From: Acholeplasmataceae bacterium
Lineage (GTDB): Bacteria > Bacillota_I > Bacilli_A > ML615J-28 > CAG-698
Length of the DNA: 39,453 bases
Assembly (NCBI GenBank): GCA_012718985.1
Contig: JAAYBG010000029.1
Coordinates: 1-39,453, forward strand
Direction of reading: 5' to 3'
The notes below the pieces were generated by a model. It saw nothing but the letters and a program-made list of their open reading frames with translations. It had not been told where the DNA came from and ran no database searches. Both the position numbers and the translations under genes were made by a program. Positions 3,522 through 39,453 of this stretch are shown here, piece after piece (position 1 is the first letter of the stretch; every line of letters starts with the position of its first letter).

Positions 3522-5253
3522 TAAAGTCGATTATGCCTTTATCATCAATTCCATTATTCTTAAATGCTTCTTTTAGTTTTTCTTGAATTTTCTCGTTACG
3601 AAATTCAAGATTAATTTGTAAGCATTCATCTAAAGTAATGATATTATGTTCGTTTATTTCTTGTAATATTTTTGCCAATATCATTCTTTCCGATTCGTTT
3701 AAACAGTCCATAAAATCATCATTCATCTTATCATTAGTTTTGTAATAATCAAAGATTTTAAATAAAATATTTCGATTATCTGCATCAGCATAAGTAAAGT
3801 TTGTTTTTTCATTTAAAATCAACAAACAAGCATTTTTAGAAGTATAAGCATGATAAACAGCGCATTTTTCATTGGCAATATATCGTCTTTTTGTTGCTGC
3901 TGATTTTACTTTTCGTTCTTTTGGAGTATGAATTGGAGAAACAAATTGAGGTTGTCTCTTCTTTTGGAAATCATCACTTATCGATGTGATTGTAATGTCT
4001 AATTCGTCAGCTACTCTTTTTAAGTAGATTTCAGTTAACGAAGCGATATTGAACATCTTCAAAAAAGCAAACACATTTTGTTTGAATGTTTCGATACTAT
4101 ATAAATCGTTTTTGTTTAACTTTCTTTTTTCTAATTCGTAAAAATAATCTGGAGCACTCAGAGTTTTATTTTCCAAAAAATCATGTAAACTAGTAGTTCC
4201 AAAACGATTTGCATATTCATCAGGATCGAGTCCTTCAGGTAGCAACATCACTTTAATATTGAAATTAGCCCGATGAAACATTTCAATTGCTCTTTTTGAT
4301 GCTTCAATACCGGGATTATCTCCATCAAAACACAAGGTAATATTATTCGTCGCTTTTTTAATTGCTTGAATTTGTTGGTTTGTCAGGGCAGTTCCCATCG
4401 TTGCTATAGCATTTTCAATTTTAGCACGATAAGCAGCAATTACATCCATAAAGCCTTCAAAAATAAAGACATGATTCTTTTGTTTGATTACATTAACCGC
4501 TCGAGAATAATTATATAGAATATTTGATTTTTTAAAAATCACATTCTCATTACTATTAATATATTTAGGCTCATTTTTTTTAGTTTTTTTATAAATTCTT
4601 CCACTGAACCCTATAATATTACCATTAAGGTCATCAATAGGAAACATGATTCTTGAACGAAAAACATCATAATAGGTATTTTCTTTTCCTGCTTTAATCA
4701 ATCCTACTTCCAATAAATTTAATGGTAAATAAGGATTATCTCTTTCAGTTAATGCCTTATACAAGAGATCAAATTCATCGCTTGCCAGACCAATCTTAAA
4801 TCGGCGAACGATTTCTTCATCTAAATGGCGATCATTTAAATATTGAATTGCTTCTTTTCCCTCAATTGAATTCTTCAGGTAAAATTCATAATAATTAGCA
4901 GCATCTTCCATGATTCTTAGATATTTTTGTAAATCCTGATTGACATTATCATCAATGTCAACGGGAATTCCCATTTTTTCGCCCACATACTTGATTGCTT
5001 GCGGGAAACTAAGATTCTTATATCTTTGAATAAAGCCTACTGCATTTCCAGAAGCTCCGCAACTAAAACATTTAAATACTTTTTTGCTTGGGGAAACGGA
5101 TAGAGAAGGATTCGTATCATTATGAAAAGGGCAAATCCCTTTATAATCGTTTCCTTTTTTTTCCAATTTAATATGCTCACCGATAATGGCAACAATATCA
5201 GCATTTTCGGTTATTTTTCTTATCGTTGCTTCGGATATACGCATACTACTCAC
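3475..5253 (-). CDS. dnaG: DNA primase
   Basis: CHC2 zinc finger [50 protein letters not shown]...CFDGDNPG; dnaG-rpoD order. Confidence 0.97.
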
Positions 5254-30738: not shown

Positions 30739-30828
30739 CCGAATTCTTAACTTTTATAATAATCTATATTGATTATATCATATTTTTAGAGAATATAATA
30801 GAGAATAAAAAATCTCTTTTCAAAAAAA

Positions 30829-30851
30829 ACTTATGTCTTTATAACATAAGT
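30829..30851 (-). terminator. Terminator after the lacI-type gene
   Basis: On minus: ACTTATGT-tataaag-ACATAAGT followed by TTTTTTTT. Confidence 0.85.
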
Positions 30852-30857
30852 CTTCCT

Positions 30858-31865
30858 TTAAACAATTTCTTTAACACTATTTCTTTCGGTAATAATCGTT
30901 GGTAAAACAATATTATTTATTTCCAAATCGCCAGCTAGAAGCTTATCGAGTAACATACTGATATTACTTGATATCGCAGGGATGTTTTGTTTAACGCTTG
31001 TTAGTGGAACATCTAGCATAGATGAAAATAACAAGTCATCAAAGCCGATAATGGAAATATCGTGAGGAATTTTTTTCCCTAATTTTTTTGCAGCATGGTA
31101 AAAACCATAGGCCATTAAATCATTGCAGACAAAGACTGCTGTAATATCCTTTTCCATAATCTTTAGTCCTTGATGATAACCACTTTCAAATTTATAATCA
31201 CCGGCAACAATCAGATCTTCATTAATTTCAATGTTTGCATCCTGTAAGGCTTTCTTATATCCTTCGATACGTAATCTTGCGGAATAGGAATTAAGAGGAC
31301 CAGTAATGCAGCCGATTTTAGTATGTCCTTTTTTAATCAAATATTTCACAGCATCGATACTACCATTTAGATTATCTGTAATTACAGATGAACAAAGCAT
31401 TCCTGAGAAAAATCTATCAAAAACAATAACCCCTTTACGAGCATCTATATACTTATTGATATAATCAAATCTATCAACAGCTTCAATCGCCGGACATATC
31501 ACTAATGCATCAACTCCTTTTGAAAATAAAAGATTTGCATATTTTATTTCTTCAGATAATTTATCATTAGTATTGCATAAGATTACACTATATCCTTTCA
31601 AATTCGCTTCTTGTTCGATATTTTTTGCAATTTCAGCAAAAAAGATATTGCTAATATCAGGGATAATTAGTCCGATTGTTTTTGTTTTTTTCGTTACCAA
31701 CCCAACAGCTAATGAATTGGGAATATAATTATATTCTTTTGCTAATTGAAGGACGCGTTTCTTTTTGGCTTCCGAAACACGGACATTTTTTCCATTTAAA
31801 ATTAGCGAAACTGTAGTTGTTGATAGATTGGCTTTCTCACTTAGAAATTTCAACGTAACCGCCAT
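30858..31865 (-). CDS. LacI/RbsR-family transcriptional regulator
   Basis: N-terminal HTH VTLKFLSEKANLSTTTVSLILNGKNVRVSEAKKKRVLQLAKEYNYIPN; periplasmic-binding-like domain TKTIGLIIPDISNIFFAEI...VFVCNDLMAYG. Confidence 0.95.
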   Translation of the reverse strand: MAVTLKFLSEKANLSTTTVSLILNGKNVRVSEAKKKRVLQLAKEYNYIPNSLAVGLVTKKTKTIGLIIPDISNIFFAEIAKNIEQEANLKGYSVILCNTNDKLSEEIKYANLLFSKGVDALVICPAIEAVDRFDYINKYIDARKGVIVFDRFFSGMLCSSVITDNLNGSIDAVKYLIKKGHTKIGCITGPLNSYSARLRIEGYKKALQDANIEINEDLIVAGDYKFESGYHQGLKIMEKDITAVFVCNDLMAYGFYHAAKKLGKKIPHDISIIGFDDLLFSSMLDVPLTSVKQNIPAISSNISMLLDKLLAGDLEINNIVLPTIITERNSVKEIV

Positions 31866-31890
31866 TATAATAGCACCCCTTTAACATAAT

Positions 31891-32805
31891 CTAGTTTTTT
31901 AAATATTCTTCTACCTCTTTTTTAGTTGGAATTGATTGTTGTGCTCCTTGACGGGTAATTGCAATCGCAGAAGCGACGTTCGCGTAATTCAGAGCACTTT
32001 CAAGGCTATTGTTCTCTGCTAGTTTTGCTACCAGCGAACCAATAAAAGTATCTCCTGCTGCTGTCGTATCAACAACATTTACCTTTTTCGCTTTCATATA
32101 ATTGACTTTACTGCCATCATTGAAAACACATCCTTGTTCACCTAAGGTAATAATGACATTTTTAACCCCTTTATTAAGAAAATATTCAACCAAATCCTCA
32201 ATTTTCTGGGAATGGAGATTAGAAATGACATAACTTTCGTTTTCATTAGGGATAAAATAATCGCAATTTTGAAGGATTTGATCATCAAGCGGTAATGCTG
32301 GCGCTGGGTTTAAAACAGTTATCATTTTTAGTTTTTTGGCAAGTGCTAATCCCTCTTTCACAACTTCAATTTTATTCTCCAGTTGAGTGATCAAATAATC
32401 ACCGGGTTTTGCTAATTTCATAAGTATCCTCTCAAAATCAGCATATTCATAACAATAGTTAGCGCCTGTATCTAAAATAATTCGATTATTTTTGTCATTG
32501 ACAATAATGATTGCAACTCCCGTAGGACATTCTTTTGTAACGACATATTTAGTATTTACTTTAACTTTTTTTAAATTATTCTTCAGTTGTTTACCAAAAG
32601 AATCCTTTCCCACTGCTCCAAGCATGATTACATTTCCCCCAGCTTTAGCAGCAGCAACTGCTTGGTTTGCTCCTTTCCCTCCCGGGTTAGAAAAGAAATC
32701 TTTTCCTATCACCGTTTCCCCTGGAATTGGAAAAAGATCACAACTGATACTTAAATCTATATTTAAACTACCCAATATGAATATTTTTTTCATAAAATAC
32801 CTCAA
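31891..32805 (-). CDS. rbsK: Ribokinase, PfkB family (likely start ATG at 32793, MKKIFILGSLNID...)
   Basis: ILGSLNIDLSI, GGKGANQAVAAAKAGG, TLGEQGCVF, DTTAAGDTFIGSL. Confidence 0.93.
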   Translation of the reverse strand: MRYFMKKIFILGSLNIDLSISCDLFPIPGETVIGKDFFSNPGGKGANQAVAAAKAGGNVIMLGAVGKDSFGKQLKNNLKKVKVNTKYVVTKECPTGVAIIIVNDKNNRIILDTGANYCYEYADFERILMKLAKPGDYLITQLENKIEVVKEGLALAKKLKMITVLNPAPALPLDDQILQNCDYFIPNENESYVISNLHSQKIEDLVEYFLNKGVKNVIITLGEQGCVFNDGSKVNYMKAKKVNVVDTTAAGDTFIGSLVAKLAENNSLESALNYANVASAIAITRQGAQQSIPTKKEVEEYLKN

Positions 32806-34193
32806 GCAATCGTCTTTGCCAATTTTACCGTGAATTTAGCAAGTTCTTTGATGCTGATTGATTTATTAGCACGAATGTAGGTTTTTAACTCATCACCAAT
32901 GGGTTTAGTCCATTTTTCTTTTAACGCTTTTTCTTTCCCGATAATACCGAATAGTGTTCCGATTTGAGCAGCGTTACAATCAACGTCATAGCCAATCATC
33001 GCACATACATGCATCGTTTCGTCAAAATCATTGTTTCCAAACCACAGTGAAACAACTTCAGCTGCTGCATTAGGATAAGCATGAATCCAGTTATATTGTT
33101 TATATTTATCGATAATCTTTGTCCAAGCTGCTTCCCAGTCTTTTTCCTGTTCACAAACATCAAGTGAATATTTTACCACCGTATAATATTCGCTTTTTTT
33201 AGGAATATAATGAGCGATAGTTGTTTTCACAATTTCTTTTACATCATTACATCCATAAGCAAGACTCACCAATACCGCATTAAAAATTTCACCAATTACT
33301 CCGTTGTTATAATGAGAAACAACTCCATCCATAAAGGCTAATTCTGCAGCCTTCAATGGATTATTAGGAGCTACCATTCCACAAACAGCACCACGCATTT
33401 GAGCACCAATCCATTCGCAATAAGGGTTGTGTAAAAAGCCGCTTTCAGGAGGATAGATTCCCATTTTTATGTTTTTTAATGCCCATTCTTCTGCTGACCA
33501 ACCATAAGGAATCAAAGCAGTCCATTCTTCAGCAATATCCGCAGAAGTTATTTTTTTCCCTTTTCGTTCCAGTGCTTTTAAAAATGCAATTTCATAGGTG
33601 ATATCATCATTGTATGTGTTTGGTTTACGAACATAATCATAAATCTCACCAAAAGCTTCACGAATGTTTTTCGTTGTATAACCTTCAACTGCTGTTCCAA
33701 TTGCTCCTGCCACTATTTGAGCTAACCAACCATAGTAAGTCTGCGCTAAATAATTTTCATCCATTTTAATTTTTGGATAAATAATATTTTGATTGATATC
33801 TTCCAACACCTTATCAAAGCTATCATAAACACGATATTGCCATGAAGGGTGGTTTTTAATTGGTTTCGCGTTATTGAGAATATTCCATATTCTCCAAGTA
33901 ACTCGGTTCAAAGAAACTATATCATTTTTTTCAAGATATAGCAAACCTTCATCAATTAATTTTTCTGCTTCGGTAACATCATAACCCATATTCCCCATAT
34001 CTGCAATTGCACCGATAATGACTCTTTCAGGAGCATTCGAGCCAGGAACATTGCTTTTCCATTTTGACTTAAGCATAATGTCATCAATTTGTTCGATTTG
34101 TTCGGAAAAAAGCCAACCTTGTTCATCTTCTTCAAGAACAACTGGTTTTGCTTGTTGCATTAATTCAAATTCTCTCTCCCAAGCTTTTTTCAT
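32802..34193 (-). CDS. ADP-ribosylglycohydrolase (ARH/DraG)-family protein with ~150-aa N-terminal extension
   Basis: 463 aa; GAIGTAVEG, NDDITYEIAFLKAL, NPLKAAELAFMDGVVSHYNNGVIGEIFNAVLVSLAYG, YDVDCNAAQIGTLFGIIG match ARH fold metal/ligand motifs; ATGA overlap with the upstream permease. Confidence 0.85.
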   Translation of the reverse strand: MKKAWEREFELMQQAKPVVLEEDEQGWLFSEQIEQIDDIMLKSKWKSNVPGSNAPERVIIGAIADMGNMGYDVTEAEKLIDEGLLYLEKNDIVSLNRVTWRIWNILNNAKPIKNHPSWQYRVYDSFDKVLEDINQNIIYPKIKMDENYLAQTYYGWLAQIVAGAIGTAVEGYTTKNIREAFGEIYDYVRKPNTYNDDITYEIAFLKALERKGKKITSADIAEEWTALIPYGWSAEEWALKNIKMGIYPPESGFLHNPYCEWIGAQMRGAVCGMVAPNNPLKAAELAFMDGVVSHYNNGVIGEIFNAVLVSLAYGCNDVKEIVKTTIAHYIPKKSEYYTVVKYSLDVCEQEKDWEAAWTKIIDKYKQYNWIHAYPNAAAEVVSLWFGNNDFDETMHVCAMIGYDVDCNAAQIGTLFGIIGKEKALKEKWTKPIGDELKTYIRANKSISIKELAKFTVKLAKTIA

Positions 34194-35116
34194 TTTACCC
34201 TCCTACTATTTTTTTGTTTCTTTAATTTACTAATTGAATATATCACTAACGCAAGTATGGTCATCAAATATGGTAATGTATTTAACAATTCATAAGGAAT
34301 ATTCAATGCTGTTTGTGCATTAATCGCAAATGCAGATACTATACCAAAAATAAATGCAAATATAATAGTTAATAATGGTTGCCCTGCCCCCATCGCTTCT
34401 GCTGCCAGACCAATAAAACCACGCCCCGCTATCATACCACTATTGTAAGTAGACAAATAGGACATCGATAAGAATACCCCTCCTAAACCAGCAAAAACAC
34501 CTGCTATAATCAAGGCTATCAATTGGATCTTTTCAATAGAAATTCCTACTGATTTAGCTGCTATAGGATTATAACCAACCGCTTTGATTAATAAACCCAT
34601 TTTTGTTTTGTTTAAAAATGTTGAAATAGAAATAACACTAATGATAGCGATATAGAATAATAAGTTCTGTTCGAATAAAACACCGATAATAGGAATATCC
34701 TTCAAATAAGGAATCTTGATATAAGGTATTGCATAACTAGGAGCACTGGTTGTATCTCCCTTGGTTCCTAGTATTGAATACATAAGGAAAACAACAAATC
34801 CTGTCGCAAAAATATTAAGTGCAACTCCAGTAAGAACAGAACTCGTTTTTAATTTATGAGTACAAATCGATAATAAAATTCCCATTAAAATTCCTGTACC
34901 AATTCCGCCCAAGATACCCCAAATATAGCTTTGGGTGAAGAAACTTATCAAAGCGCCTATTAAAGCTGATACTGACATGCTACCTTCAATATTAATATTT
35001 AATATCCCCGCTTTATTGGAAATTAGAGCAGCTAAAGCAGCAAACAAAATAGGAATTGTCAGTTGAATTGATGTATAGAAAAACTCTTCACTAAATAACA
35101 TTTCAAATATTTTCAT
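34190..35116 (-). CDS. BMP/nucleoside-type ABC transporter permease (YufQ/NupC-like)
   Basis: 308 aa multi-TM BPD_transp_2; LAALISNKAGILNINIEGSM, GLLIKAVGYNPIAAKSVGIS, FIGLAAEAMGAGQP. Confidence 0.92.
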   Translation of the reverse strand: MKIFEMLFSEEFFYTSIQLTIPILFAALAALISNKAGILNINIEGSMSVSALIGALISFFTQSYIWGILGGIGTGILMGILLSICTHKLKTSSVLTGVALNIFATGFVVFLMYSILGTKGDTTSAPSYAIPYIKIPYLKDIPIIGVLFEQNLLFYIAIISVISISTFLNKTKMGLLIKAVGYNPIAAKSVGISIEKIQLIALIIAGVFAGLGGVFLSMSYLSTYNSGMIAGRGFIGLAAEAMGAGQPLLTIIFAFIFGIVSAFAINAQTALNIPYELLNTLPYLMTILALVIYSISKLKKQKNSRRVK

Positions 35117-36261
35117 TATTGTCCCTCACTGCTACTCTTTAAGACTGTTTCTTCTGCATTCTTAAAGATTTTATTTTTATAGCGTGCCATAAAAGCTTGA
35201 CCAGCAACAATAATAATAATGATTGCTTGAATGATTTGAATTAATTCACTTGCTACATCTGTTTGTAAGGACATCAGGGTTGCACCTGTACGCAAATACG
35301 CCAAAAAAAGTGCTGCCAGAGGAGTTAATAGCGGATTGTTGCTAGCCAAAATGGCAACGATAAATCCATCAAATCCATATCCGGGAAGAGCCTTCCAACT
35401 GAACCGTCCATCGATTCCCCCTAGAATTTCTACTGCACCACCTAAGCCTGCAATAGCACTTCCAATTACTTGTGAATAAATAATCGCTGACATAGCGGAC
35501 AAACCTGAAAATTTTGCGAAATTTTTATTGTTTCCTGTAATTCTTATTGTATATCCATATTTTGTTTTATATAAAAATATGGCGGACAATATAACAACAA
35601 CAAGGGCAATAAGGATTCCTGTTGATAAATATGTTCCCTTTAAAAGGATACCTAATCTATTTTCATCAGGAATCAATCGCGTAGCAATATCTCCTGATGC
35701 TTCATCACGAAAATAATTTTGTAGGAAAAACATCCCTACCCATAGCATAATAAAATTCAACATTAAACTAACAACGAATTCATTCACATTGAGTTTTGCC
35801 TTTAAGATAGCGGGAATAAAACCAAAGATGATGGTTACTACAATTGCTGCTAAACAAGCAATTACTATTGCCAGGAAAGAACTCACTGGCAAATAAATTG
35901 CTATCAAAGCTGCAACAAAACCGCCAAGATAAAAGCTACCTTCGCCAATCATATTAAACTGCCCGCACTTCAACATAATAGAAGCAGCAACACCGGCAAA
36001 GACTAAAGGAACAGATGCTCTTAAAATTTCTCCTATCCAAAATTTACTTTTAAAAGGAGAAAATAATAACGCAGTGATTGCTGAAAATGGTTCCTTAGAA
36101 ACGAATAATAAAATCACAAAGGTGATAACTAAAGCGATTAAAATCGCTGTTAACGTTCTAAAAAAATTGAAATATTTTATTTTTTGTCTATAATTAGGAT
36201 TTTTAAACGAGATTACCGCTTTTTTTAACGCTTCTTTTACTACATTTTTTCTCTCAGACAT
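35116..36261 (-). CDS. BMP/nucleoside-type ABC transporter permease (YufP/NupB-like)
   Basis: 381 aa; GVAASIMLKCGQFNMIGEGSFYLGGF, YTIRITGNNKNFAKFSGLS, GYGFDGFIVAILASNNP. Confidence 0.92.
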   Translation of the reverse strand: MSERKNVVKEALKKAVISFKNPNYRQKIKYFNFFRTLTAILIALVITFVILLFVSKEPFSAITALLFSPFKSKFWIGEILRASVPLVFAGVAASIMLKCGQFNMIGEGSFYLGGFVAALIAIYLPVSSFLAIVIACLAAIVVTIIFGFIPAILKAKLNVNEFVVSLMLNFIMLWVGMFFLQNYFRDEASGDIATRLIPDENRLGILLKGTYLSTGILIALVVVILSAIFLYKTKYGYTIRITGNNKNFAKFSGLSAMSAIIYSQVIGSAIAGLGGAVEILGGIDGRFSWKALPGYGFDGFIVAILASNNPLLTPLAALFLAYLRTGATLMSLQTDVASELIQIIQAIIIIIVAGQAFMARYKNKIFKNAEETVLKSSSEGQ

Positions 36262-37786
36262 CTTGCACCTCGTCCATAGACTTTAATCCAAGCATGTATA
36301 AACCTAGTTCTTCTTCGGTAATCTCACTTACATTGGTTATCTTTGCTACTATCTTACCAGCATAAAAGACAATGATTTTATCCGCCAAGCGAAACACTTC
36401 AGATAAATCGGAACTAACCAACAACACGGCTGTTTTATCGCAAGATAAATCCACTATTTTTTTATGGATGAATTCTATAGCCCCGATATCAACACCTCTG
36501 GTCGGTTGATTAGCCACTAAAAGGCTTGGGGTTTTCCTGGTTTCGCGAGCCACAACCACTTTTTGCATGTTTCCGCCCGATAACATCTCCACTTTTTGAG
36601 CTGCATTTTCACACTTGATTTGATAGTTCTTAATCCCTTCTTCAGATACTTCTTCTACTCTTTTTTTGTTGATGAAAATTCCATTACTAACATCTGTTAA
36701 TGCAATAGAAATTAAATTATCAGCAATTGAAGATGCTAAATCAACACCATAAAGAGTTCTATCTTCTGGAATATGAGATTCTCCCATATCTCGAATTTGC
36801 TTAATAGTTTTTTTATTTATATTCTGATTTTTAATCATAACTTGACCTGAATAATCTTGATCAAATCCTGTAATGATATCCACTAATTCTCTTTGACCGT
36901 TTCCTTCAACACCGCATAAACAAACAATTTCACCTTGTCTACAGGTAAAAGAAACATCATTTAAGAGCATTTTACCACTGCTGGTAATTTTTGATAAATG
37001 ATTAACAGTTAAAACGATATCTCCCCTTTTCCTACTGGGTTTATTCACTTCTTGAACAATATCTCTACCTACCATCAACCTTGATATTTCTGCTTCTGAT
37101 AATGCATTAACATCAAACATACCAATAAATCTACCATTTTTCATAATGGTAATCCGATCACAAATTTGTTTTATTTCCTTTAATTTATGAGTAATGATAA
37201 TGATTGTATATTCTTGTTTTTTCAATAATTCTAGTTGAGTAAAAAACTCCTGCGTTTCTTGTGGGGTTAACACAGCAGTTGGCTCATCAAAAATTATTAT
37301 TTTTGCATTTCTTGCCAATACTTTTAAAATTTCTACTTTTTGCTTTTGAACGATTGACAAATTTCCAACTTTTTCTTCTGGATCAATACTCATACCGAAT
37401 TTTTCTGCTAATTTTACCACTGCTTCTTTTGTTTTTTTACGATCTATCATGAAATTCTTGGTAATTTCCTGCCCTAAAAAAATATTTTCAGCAACCGTCA
37501 ATTCATTTACTAGCATAAAGTGTTGATGAACCATACCAATTCCAAAACTATTCGCAACCAATGGAGAAGTGATTTTCACTTCATGGCCATTAAGATAAAT
37601 TTGACCACTGGTTGGTTTTTCTAAACCATATAGTATTTTCATTAGCGTACTTTTACCAGCTCCATTTTCACCAGCAAGCGCATGAATTTCACCAGCAAAA
37701 ATTTCGATAAAAGCATTGTTGTTAGCAACAATGCCATTATCATATATTTTGAAAATATTTGTCATTTTAATTATCGTTTTTTTCAT
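36254..37786 (-). CDS. ABC transporter, duplicated ATP-binding protein (YufO/NupA-like)
   Basis: 510 aa; GENGAGKSTLMKILYG, DEPTAVLTP, second half GVEGNGQREL...LSGGNMQKVVVARETRK...NQPTRGVD. Confidence 0.96.
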   Translation of the reverse strand: MKKTIIKMTNIFKIYDNGIVANNNAFIEIFAGEIHALAGENGAGKSTLMKILYGLEKPTSGQIYLNGHEVKITSPLVANSFGIGMVHQHFMLVNELTVAENIFLGQEITKNFMIDRKKTKEAVVKLAEKFGMSIDPEEKVGNLSIVQKQKVEILKVLARNAKIIIFDEPTAVLTPQETQEFFTQLELLKKQEYTIIIITHKLKEIKQICDRITIMKNGRFIGMFDVNALSEAEISRLMVGRDIVQEVNKPSRKRGDIVLTVNHLSKITSSGKMLLNDVSFTCRQGEIVCLCGVEGNGQRELVDIITGFDQDYSGQVMIKNQNINKKTIKQIRDMGESHIPEDRTLYGVDLASSIADNLISIALTDVSNGIFINKKRVEEVSEEGIKNYQIKCENAAQKVEMLSGGNMQKVVVARETRKTPSLLVANQPTRGVDIGAIEFIHKKIVDLSCDKTAVLLVSSDLSEVFRLADKIIVFYAGKIVAKITNVSEITEEELGLYMLGLKSMDEVQDV

Positions 37787-37793
37787 AGCTATT

Positions 37794-38987
37794 TTATTTT
37801 ACTTTGACATCATCTTCGATAGCGTTGAACTCTGCTAACGTTAAATCATAAGTTGAGTCAACAGTAATTTCTCCGTTAATTATTTTCAGTTCAATTTCGT
37901 CAATCAATTCACGAATTTCTTGAGGAACAATTTGCAGATAATAATCATTCTTTGCCAATCCAATTACCGATTGACCATCAATAATGGTATTTAACCCCAT
38001 TTCAACAACTTTTCCAAACTCTAATGTATTCGCTTGAAATTCTAAAATTGCATTAAATAGCGATAAATCTACCCTTTTTAAAACACTTGTTACAATGCGA
38101 CGAGCCTTATCTAAATCGGCTGTGTCACCAGTTGAAAAATAATGGTATTGATCACTATCGACTCCGATGATATATTTTTTAATTGCTTTCGTTTTATATA
38201 ACTCACTAGCAGCATCAATACAACCTAAACCAGATTGGGATGCAGCTTGGAAAATAATTTCCGCTCCATTATTATATTGACTCAGTGCTTGAGCTTTTCC
38301 AGTAGTACTATCGGTAAATCCACCGACATAAGAGCTATACGTTTCCGTTTTGATATATCCACTCAGTGAATTGATATATTGAATTCCTTGATAATAACCA
38401 ACGGCAAAATCCTTGATAATATCGGATTTTAAACCACCAACAAAACCAGCTTTTTTAACGCCTTGAGTTGGTTGCAACTGTTGTAACCAAGAAGCGGCTA
38501 AAACACCAGCTAGGAAAGAACCTTCATTTTGCATATACTTAATTGAATAAACATTGTTAAAAGTTTTTCCTTTTGCTTCTTTATTAATATCTGCATCAAA
38601 TATAATAAATTTTTTCCCAGGATATAACGGAGCAATTCTCTGGAGTTTTTCTCGCATTTGATCAGTCCCAACAATAATTAAATCATACTTTTCGCTCGAT
38701 TCGCATACCTCTCTTAGCGAAGATTCCCAGTTACTGGTATTTTGACCGATTTCTTTTACTGTAGTTACGATTTCCGGATGGCTATTATTAATCATTTTAA
38801 TGCCTTCATTAGCGGAGTCAAAAAAAGATTTATCGCCTAAATTACCATTGATAATTAAGCATACCTTCGTTATTCCATCAGTACTACCATCATTTATAAC
38901 TTCTTTTTCATCACCACAACCCAAAGTTGAAATAGTAATAAAAACAAATAGAACTAGGATTATTAATCTTATGATTGTTTTTTTCAT
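37794..38987 (-). CDS. BMP-family (PnrA-like) substrate-binding lipoprotein
   Basis: 397 aa; signal with lipobox STLGC; KVCLIINGNLGDKSFFDSANEGIKMI, NEGSFLAGVLAA, GADIIFQAASQSGLG-like region (GAEIIFQAASQSGLGCIDAA). Confidence 0.94.
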   Translation of the reverse strand: MKKTIIRLIILVLFVFITISTLGCGDEKEVINDGSTDGITKVCLIINGNLGDKSFFDSANEGIKMINNSHPEIVTTVKEIGQNTSNWESSLREVCESSEKYDLIIVGTDQMREKLQRIAPLYPGKKFIIFDADINKEAKGKTFNNVYSIKYMQNEGSFLAGVLAASWLQQLQPTQGVKKAGFVGGLKSDIIKDFAVGYYQGIQYINSLSGYIKTETYSSYVGGFTDSTTGKAQALSQYNNGAEIIFQAASQSGLGCIDAASELYKTKAIKKYIIGVDSDQYHYFSTGDTADLDKARRIVTSVLKRVDLSLFNAILEFQANTLEFGKVVEMGLNTIIDGQSVIGLAKNDYYLQIVPQEIRELIDEIELKIINGEITVDSTYDLTLAEFNAIEDDVKVK

Positions 38988-38992
38988 TTTTT

Positions 38993-39012
38993 TACCTCAT
39001 AATTTTGAGATA
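38993..39012 (-). promoter_or_regulatory. 20-bp near-palindrome over the bmpA RBS: SD-sequestering hairpin or operator
   Basis: TACCTCATAATTTTGAGATA matches its reverse complement at 16/20 positions; in RNA, UAUCUCA pairs with UGAGGUA and covers the GAGG SD. Confidence 0.55.
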
Positions 39013-39047
39013 TCTAGCGGAAGACCCATTGCCTTCCGCTACATACC
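39009..39047 (-). promoter_or_regulatory. Leader stem-loop upstream of bmpA (9-bp core, extendable to 14 bp)
   Basis: On minus: GGTAT-G-TAGCGGAAG-gcaatgggt-CTTCCGCTA-G-ATATC; no U-tract follows, so it is not a plain terminator. Confidence 0.6.
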
Positions 39048-39073
39048 AGAATCATTTTCATAAAATAATTTTT

Positions 39074-39453
39074 TTACCAAGTAATGTCTTGTGTCACATA
39101 AGTAATTTCGAATAAATCGCCATCTCTTAATTGTTGTGCACCAACGCCAGCAGAAAACTTGCCATTAATCGTGGTACTCCAAGATGAATAAGTTCCGTTA
39201 CCATTATCTACATAGCCAACACCTGCAATGCTACTTACAAAACTTGAGTAGCCATTTAAGCCGACAATTTCAATGCTTTTTGCTGCACAAGCGGCTTCAA
39301 CTGCCTCATAAGCCATGTGTTTAATGGTTTTTAAAGTAACAGTACCGCTAAATAATGGATCTTTTGTAGGGTCTGGATTACTGATGATTAACTTAACTGT
39401 AATTGTGTAGTTTCCATAATCTTCACTGTAATAATCTTCGGTAGCAGTTGCTG
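39074..39453 (-). CDS. DUF4430-like protein, 5-prime part cut by the window edge
   Basis: The frame upstream of the listed ATG is open to the edge (ATATEDYYSEDYGNYTITVKLIISNPDPTKDPLFSGTVTLKTIKHMAYEAVEAACAAK...); C-terminal WSTTINGKFSAGVGAQQLRDGDLFEITYV resembles DUF4430 domains. Confidence 0.7.
   Translation of the reverse strand, partial: ATATEDYYSEDYGNYTITVKLIISNPDPTKDPLFSGTVTLKTIKHMAYEAVEAACAAKSIEIVGLNGYSSFVSSIAGVGYVDNGNGTYSSWSTTINGKFSAGVGAQQLRDGDLFEITYVTQDITW

Follow-up and report, generated by a model that had tools for sequence, protein, structure and literature searches.

The spacer between the DUF4430 and bmpA genes of a transporter operon in this Acholeplasmataceae genome contains an RNA stem-loop (hairpin 1) that is far stronger than chance would give. 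Sequence comparison establishes that the stem-loop exists, that it lies inside the operon ahead of bmpA, and that it has been retained as a structure in ten genomes. Overall, it is a conserved element at the RNA level, probably an intercistronic stem-loop that stabilizes or insulates, and it is probably not a riboswitch. Our preferred reading, to which we give a probability of roughly 0.5, is that hairpin 1 is an mRNA stem-loop of a LacI-controlled PHP-DUF4430-bmpA-ABC operon which, after endonuclease cleavage, would cap and stabilize the bmpA message, keep the bmpA ribosome site independent, or do both. Under the same reading, selection would have acted on the presence of a stable stem shortly before the bmpA ribosome-binding site and not on its letters.

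An operon with a structured internal junction

The window (the whole stretch of DNA that was analyzed, 39,453 nucleotides) ends inside the DUF4430 gene. The window end overlaps with the last bases of another contig of this genome, C62, which carries the start of DUF4430, preceded by a PHP-domain-like gene (just under the Pfam cut-off) and, farther upstream, by an ECF-S transporter component and obg. The resulting gene order is PHP-DUF4430-hairpin 1-bmpA-ABC-permease-permease-ARH-PfkB-LacI, with these genes in the window:

39074-39453, minus strand: DUF4430 lipoprotein gene, 3′ part, the rest being on contig G000:C62 (Pfam DUF4430 on ortholog P0002; open frame; C62 overlap)
37794-38987, minus strand: bmpA, Bmp/PnrA-family substrate-binding lipoprotein, ATG at 38987 (Pfam PF02608)
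36254-37786, minus strand: transporter ABC ATPase (Pfam ABC_tran, two stretches)
35116-36261, minus strand: permease 1 (Pfam BPD_transp_2)
34190-35116, minus strand: permease 2 (Pfam BPD_transp_2)
32802-34193, minus strand: ADP-ribosylglycohydrolase (ARH)-family protein (Pfam PF03747)
31891-32805, minus strand: PfkB-family kinase (Pfam PF00294)
30858-31865, minus strand: LacI-family regulator, the last gene of the operon (Pfam LacI)

A U-tract, terminator-like hairpin follows lacI (in 30739-30857). At the other end, the palindrome TGGTAAAACGATTTACCA lies on C62 at L084 3624-3641, in front of PHP, whose start is at 3674. The CG-centered 18-bp palindrome TRGTAAAACGTTTTACYA and variants of it, such as TAGTAAAACGTTTTACTA, occur where the operon begins in eight related loci (L039, L040, L075, L076, L077, L078, L081, and L082). 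In the source genome and the relatives, the head palindrome sits directly behind a TTGACA/-10 promoter, and some loci carry two operator copies close together; no head operator above threshold was found in G095. The head palindrome is very likely the operator to which the LacI-family regulator of the operon binds. Since operator and promoter are at the head and the genes and U-tract hairpin follow downstream, hairpin 1 is internal to the operon, about 2 kb from its beginning, with cotranscription implied by the layout.

Operons of this kind (here 30858-39453 on the minus strand plus L084:3674-5401; PHP, DUF4430, Bmp transporter, ARH, PfkB, and LacI) were seen in few genomes, which belong to two orders. 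The gene content suggests that the operon serves to take up and cleave a nucleoside or a compound resembling ADP-ribose. The literature yielded no function for DUF4430 and nothing linking ADP-ribosylglycohydrolase, BmpA, and ribokinase. The PHP-DUF4430 spacer has a second, smaller hairpin in several loci (L047, L063, L062, L040:7160-7208, and L039:14539-14586), with differing letters (UUAACAC GAAAA GUGUUAA, UAAUAU GAGA GUAUUA, and AUAC GAAA GUAU). On the plus strand, an 87-codon open frame (38800-39063) runs antisense to hairpin 1 and the bmpA start and shows no sign of being a gene.

Rereading the sequence confirmed the placement and pairings that the initial annotation gave for the element (38993-39047, minus strand). 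The RNA reads GGUAU-G-UAGCGGAAGGC-aaugg-GUCUUCCGCUA-G-AUAUC-UCA-aaauua-UGAGGUA-aaaaa-AUG. In the core of hairpin 1, UAGCGGAAG (39041-39033) pairs with CUUCCGCUA (39023-39015), and two extra inner pairs (G-U and C-G) bring the stem to 11 bp. A lower extension (GGUAU, 39047-39043, with AUAUC, 39013-39009) continues it across a G.G mismatch. Hairpin 2 pairs UAUCUCA (39012-39006) with UGAGGUA (38999-38993) and covers the Shine-Dalgarno (SD) sequence GAGG (38998-38995). The parts of the junction are as follows, all on the minus strand:

39048-39073: AU-rich linker from the DUF4430 stop to the hairpin, read from sequence, part of it kept in the genus as AAAATGATTCTRGTATG; a candidate endonuclease entry site
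39043-39047: hairpin 1 lower extension, 5′ strand GGUAU (fold), poorly kept in relatives
39031-39041: hairpin 1 stem, 5′ strand UAGCGGAAGGC (sequence, folding, shuffles)
39024-39025: 3′ strand (GU) of the two inner pairs of hairpin 1 (folding)
39015-39023: hairpin 1 stem, 3′ strand CUUCCGCUA (sequence, folding)
39009-39013: hairpin 1 lower extension, 3′ strand AUAUC, common to hairpin 2 (sequence, fold energies)
38993-39012: hairpin 2 (UAUCUCA/UGAGGUA), not kept in G001 and G009
38995-38998: bmpA SD, GAGG (sequence), invariant in four close relatives

The 91 nt around the element fold with -26.9 kcal/mol (z = -5.55), a stability reached by none of 200 shuffles, and the whole DUF4430-bmpA spacer (38988-39073) has a folding z of about -7. 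An 11-bp stem appeared in 0 of 200 shuffles. The remaining spacers of the window all have a z of -2.9 or above, and most of those with structure are U-tract terminators. The hairpin 1 palindrome occurs once in the window, where 0 copies are expected, and once per genome in the source genome and two congeneric genomes; it is therefore not a dispersed repeat, and the flank motif is likewise unique at zero mismatches.

Retention of the stem in ten genomes

Searches across several hundred genomes belonging to the class and to the phylum returned ten loci in which bmpA follows DUF4430. They come from the source genome (G000), two genomes of the same genus (G001 and G002), one of the same family (G009), and six of another order in the same class (G390, G184, G536, G534, G537, and G095). 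The other order has PfkB and LacI ahead of PHP, and the PHP-DUF4430-spacer-bmpA-ABC arrangement is alike as far as the contigs reach. All ten spacers contain a stem of 9 to 16 bp with a small loop (folding z of -2.5 to -7.4). As a control, twelve bmpA loci without the DUF4430 layout gave z values of -2.3 to 0.1 and stems of 6 to 9 bp, with no comparable hairpin. The ten stems are listed by genome:

G000 (source): UAGCGGAAGGC/GUCUUCCGCUA
G002: AGCGGAAGACU
G001: GCGGAAGGCA
G009: AUUUCUAGCGGAAGGC
G390: CCGAGCUCUUG
G184: AUCCGGCUCCCGGU
G536: GGCUCCCGGC
G534: CCCGGCCUCGA
G537: AAGAAUAGUCUC
G095: GGGCGCAGG

The stem letters are unrelated between the two orders, and structure has been kept despite sequence change. 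In G390, G184, G536, and G534, an inner and an outer helix have 95% of cells paired, with six pairs changed on both sides. For these, only four sequences, the covariation score is 0.50, a value that 0 of 500 shuffles reached (0.32 when shuffled; the shuffles do not keep relatedness), and slid versions gave at most 0.18. In the close group (G000, G001, G002, and G009), the core is 95.5% paired, but covariation is weak because 7 of the 11 pairs never vary and only one changes on both sides; there, the sequence of the stem may itself matter too. Hairpin 2 showed no double change. The initial annotation's view of the element as an RNA structure holds, with a stem-loop in 10 of 10 orthologous spacers, divergent letters, and, in one of the groups, pairs changed on both sides.

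The 3′ base of the stem lies 27, 27, 29, 24, 27, 26, 30, and 27 nt from the bmpA start in eight of the ten loci, and 35 nt (G537) and 64 nt (G095) from it in the others. The distance from the DUF4430 stop to the stem ranges from 12 to 54. On these distances the stem appears tied to bmpA and not to DUF4430, with the caution that the p value against random placement depends on how lineages are counted (5e-5 if all ten loci are counted, 0.011 with seven lineages, and 0.24, not significant, with five).

Competing explanations for the junction

The chief rival to the preferred reading is that the stem acts in translation alone, close to where ribosomes bind for bmpA, and it has a modest chance of being correct. 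The stem would keep the spacer compact, with the SD of bmpA exposed in a short open stretch, and would bar ribosomes that finish DUF4430 from running on into bmpA, which would then initiate by itself. An initiating ribosome's footprint has its upstream edge at about the distance seen in the eight regular loci, and the stem itself excludes the SD in most loci. Such a role is harder to reconcile with the spacing in G095 and G537 and with a predicted SD openness that ranges from 0.18 to 0.92.

That the stem is a partial terminator or attenuator without a U-tract, lowering the output of bmpA and of the genes that follow, we consider unlikely. A stable GC-rich stem between genes of one operon, at all ten loci, is what this would look like. 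In an intrinsic terminator, however, the GC-rich stem is followed directly by a U-run; there is none at this site, which led us to reject a U-tract terminator, and no U-rich tail follows the stem in the other nine loci. The source genome does have ordinary U-tract hairpins, for example after lacI, and no second promoter of note was seen ahead of bmpA.

The initial annotation had proposed two mutually exclusive hairpins forming a possible translational riboswitch or RNA switch, with the extension of hairpin 1 competing against hairpin 2 over the SD. The anatomy is correct, but the exclusivity is an overstatement according to the predicted energies. The 11-bp core alone has -17.9 kcal/mol; core plus lower extension has -24.8 kcal/mol and core plus hairpin 2 has -23.9 kcal/mol, about 1 kcal/mol apart. 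The core is compatible with both states and therefore does not exclude hairpin 2; of hairpin 2, only the outer pairs compete, and only with the five-pair extension. This near balance in the source genome, and an SD predicted to be mostly paired there (unpaired probability of 0.18) and in G002 (0.21), are what favor a switch. The relatives do not bear it out. Across the four close relatives, hairpin 2 has 67.9% of cells paired; it is present in the source genome and one close relative, and pairs are missing from it in G001 and G009. For the extension the paired share is 60%, another register scores better, and G001 and G009 use different outer pairings. The predicted unpaired probability of the SD is 0.92 in G001 and 0.49 in G009. 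Since neither the competing pairings nor the SD openness is kept beyond the source genome and G002, the proposed switch is limited, on this comparison, to these two closely related genomes.

An Rfam scan at gathering and relaxed thresholds matched no riboswitch or leader to the element. The same scan detected an L21 leader on contig C62 of the source genome and therefore works. The ten loci showed no loop or internal-loop sequence in common, and neither a kept ligand-binding part nor a kept alternative pairing accompanies the stem. Furthermore, the element's position inside the operon, away from the transcript 5′ end, does not suit a switch in a leader. A translational switch is therefore improbable. 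There is a slim chance that the stem-loop is the site of a dedicated RNA-binding regulator or belongs to an undescribed ligand-responsive class, the recognized form being the GCGGAAG stem found in genus g1 and its neighbor, and that it adjusts output of the bmpA transporter in response to nucleoside supply.

The initial annotation had also raised a LacI operator as an explanation of the palindrome in the DNA, and finding the operator at the operon head answers this point. The half-sites GCGGAAG/CTTCCGC show little or no variation among four relatives in which part of the spacer drifts, and the operon closes with a LacI gene, as might be expected of a DNA site for the operon's repressor or another regulator. 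However, the CG-centered palindrome shared among the promoters of the source genome and eight related loci is the one at the head, not hairpin 1; the hairpin arms are wholly different between groups while the head operator stays alike, and the arms are 9 nt apart, a gap atypical of LacI operators. We rejected hairpin 1 as a LacI operator, and a DNA site of any kind is very improbable.

A tiny open frame, MILVCSGRQWVFR, crosses the hairpin (window 39014-39055, minus strand). That it encodes a leader peptide of genus g1, MILVC(S/G)GR..., whose translation would be coupled to that of bmpA, is a weak lead and barely credible. The frame is open in three species (source, G002, and G001) with synonymous differences in the first codons but lacks a clear SD in two of the three, is absent in G009, and has no matching peptide in the other order.

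Proposed role and known systems

The stem keeps its place and strength despite new letters, lies within an operon, has no U-tract and, in the source genome, follows an AU-rich open stretch, a combination that fits mRNA processing or stabilization. By analogy with characterized operons, we infer cleavage, protection, and unequal expression. An RNase Y-type endoribonuclease would cut the unstructured stretch 5′ of the stem, leaving the stem at the 5′ end of the bmpA-transporter message, where it would block 5′-to-3′ decay. Alternatively, a cut on the other side of the stem would leave it capping the 3′ end of PHP-DUF4430. In consequence, bmpA would accumulate to a level different from that of the preceding genes, and its initiation would be independent of DUF4430 translation. 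Against this reading stand the seven invariant core pairs of the close group, the p value at five lineages, and the 64-nt spacing in G095.

In Bacillus subtilis, RNase Y cuts AU-rich stretches of low structure, often with a structure downstream, and the cggR and glnR hairpins mainly stabilize the cleaved downstream product (PMC11780869). The cggR-gapA and glnRA operons resemble the bmpA operon in having an in-operon stem-loop 3′ of an AU-rich open stretch and 5′ of the gene to be protected (PMC11780869). The bmpA operon is unrelated to them, cleavage in it is putative, and its stem is mostly 24 to 30 nt from the start codon, with sequence turnover in two orders. In the cip-cel operon of Clostridium cellulolyticum, intergenic stem-loops guide cleavage, protect ends, and set transcript ratios, and orthologous stems exist in related species (PMC4423207, PMC10311766). 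These selective RNA processing and stabilization (SRPS) stem-loops, like the bmpA stem, are GC-rich spacer structures that are not terminators and whose orthologues vary in structure and energy; both lie between genes of one transcription unit (implied by the layout for bmpA). In contrast, cip-cel has several stem-loops, 12-gene stoichiometry, and mapped cleavage sites, while the bmpA operon has one strong stem-loop that is known from sequence alone.

ABC transporter operons repeatedly show decay that differs between segments (PMC3446304, PMC5927463). In operons such as malEFG of Escherichia coli and the ribose operon of Bacillus cereus, how much binding protein is made relative to other parts of the same ABC operon depends on RNA structure or on the stability of the segments (PMC5927463, PMC3446304), and we propose that the bmpA operon is similar, although the malE-malF structure comes after the binding-protein gene and that of the bmpA operon before it. 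With translational riboswitch platforms, the element shares a stem near the SD and, in 2 of the 10 genomes, an alternative pairing that covers the SD; it differs from them in having no kept aptamer-like part, in not keeping the alternative pairing, and in being internal to an operon.

Locating the LacI operator at the operon head allows transcriptional control to be told apart from control at the mRNA level. If the preferred reading is true, the junction would be a clear case, in small-genome Bacilli from metagenomes, of an internal operon hairpin kept at one junction while its letters were replaced, and the ten natural stem variants would provide material on how such stems tune the expression of ABC transporters.
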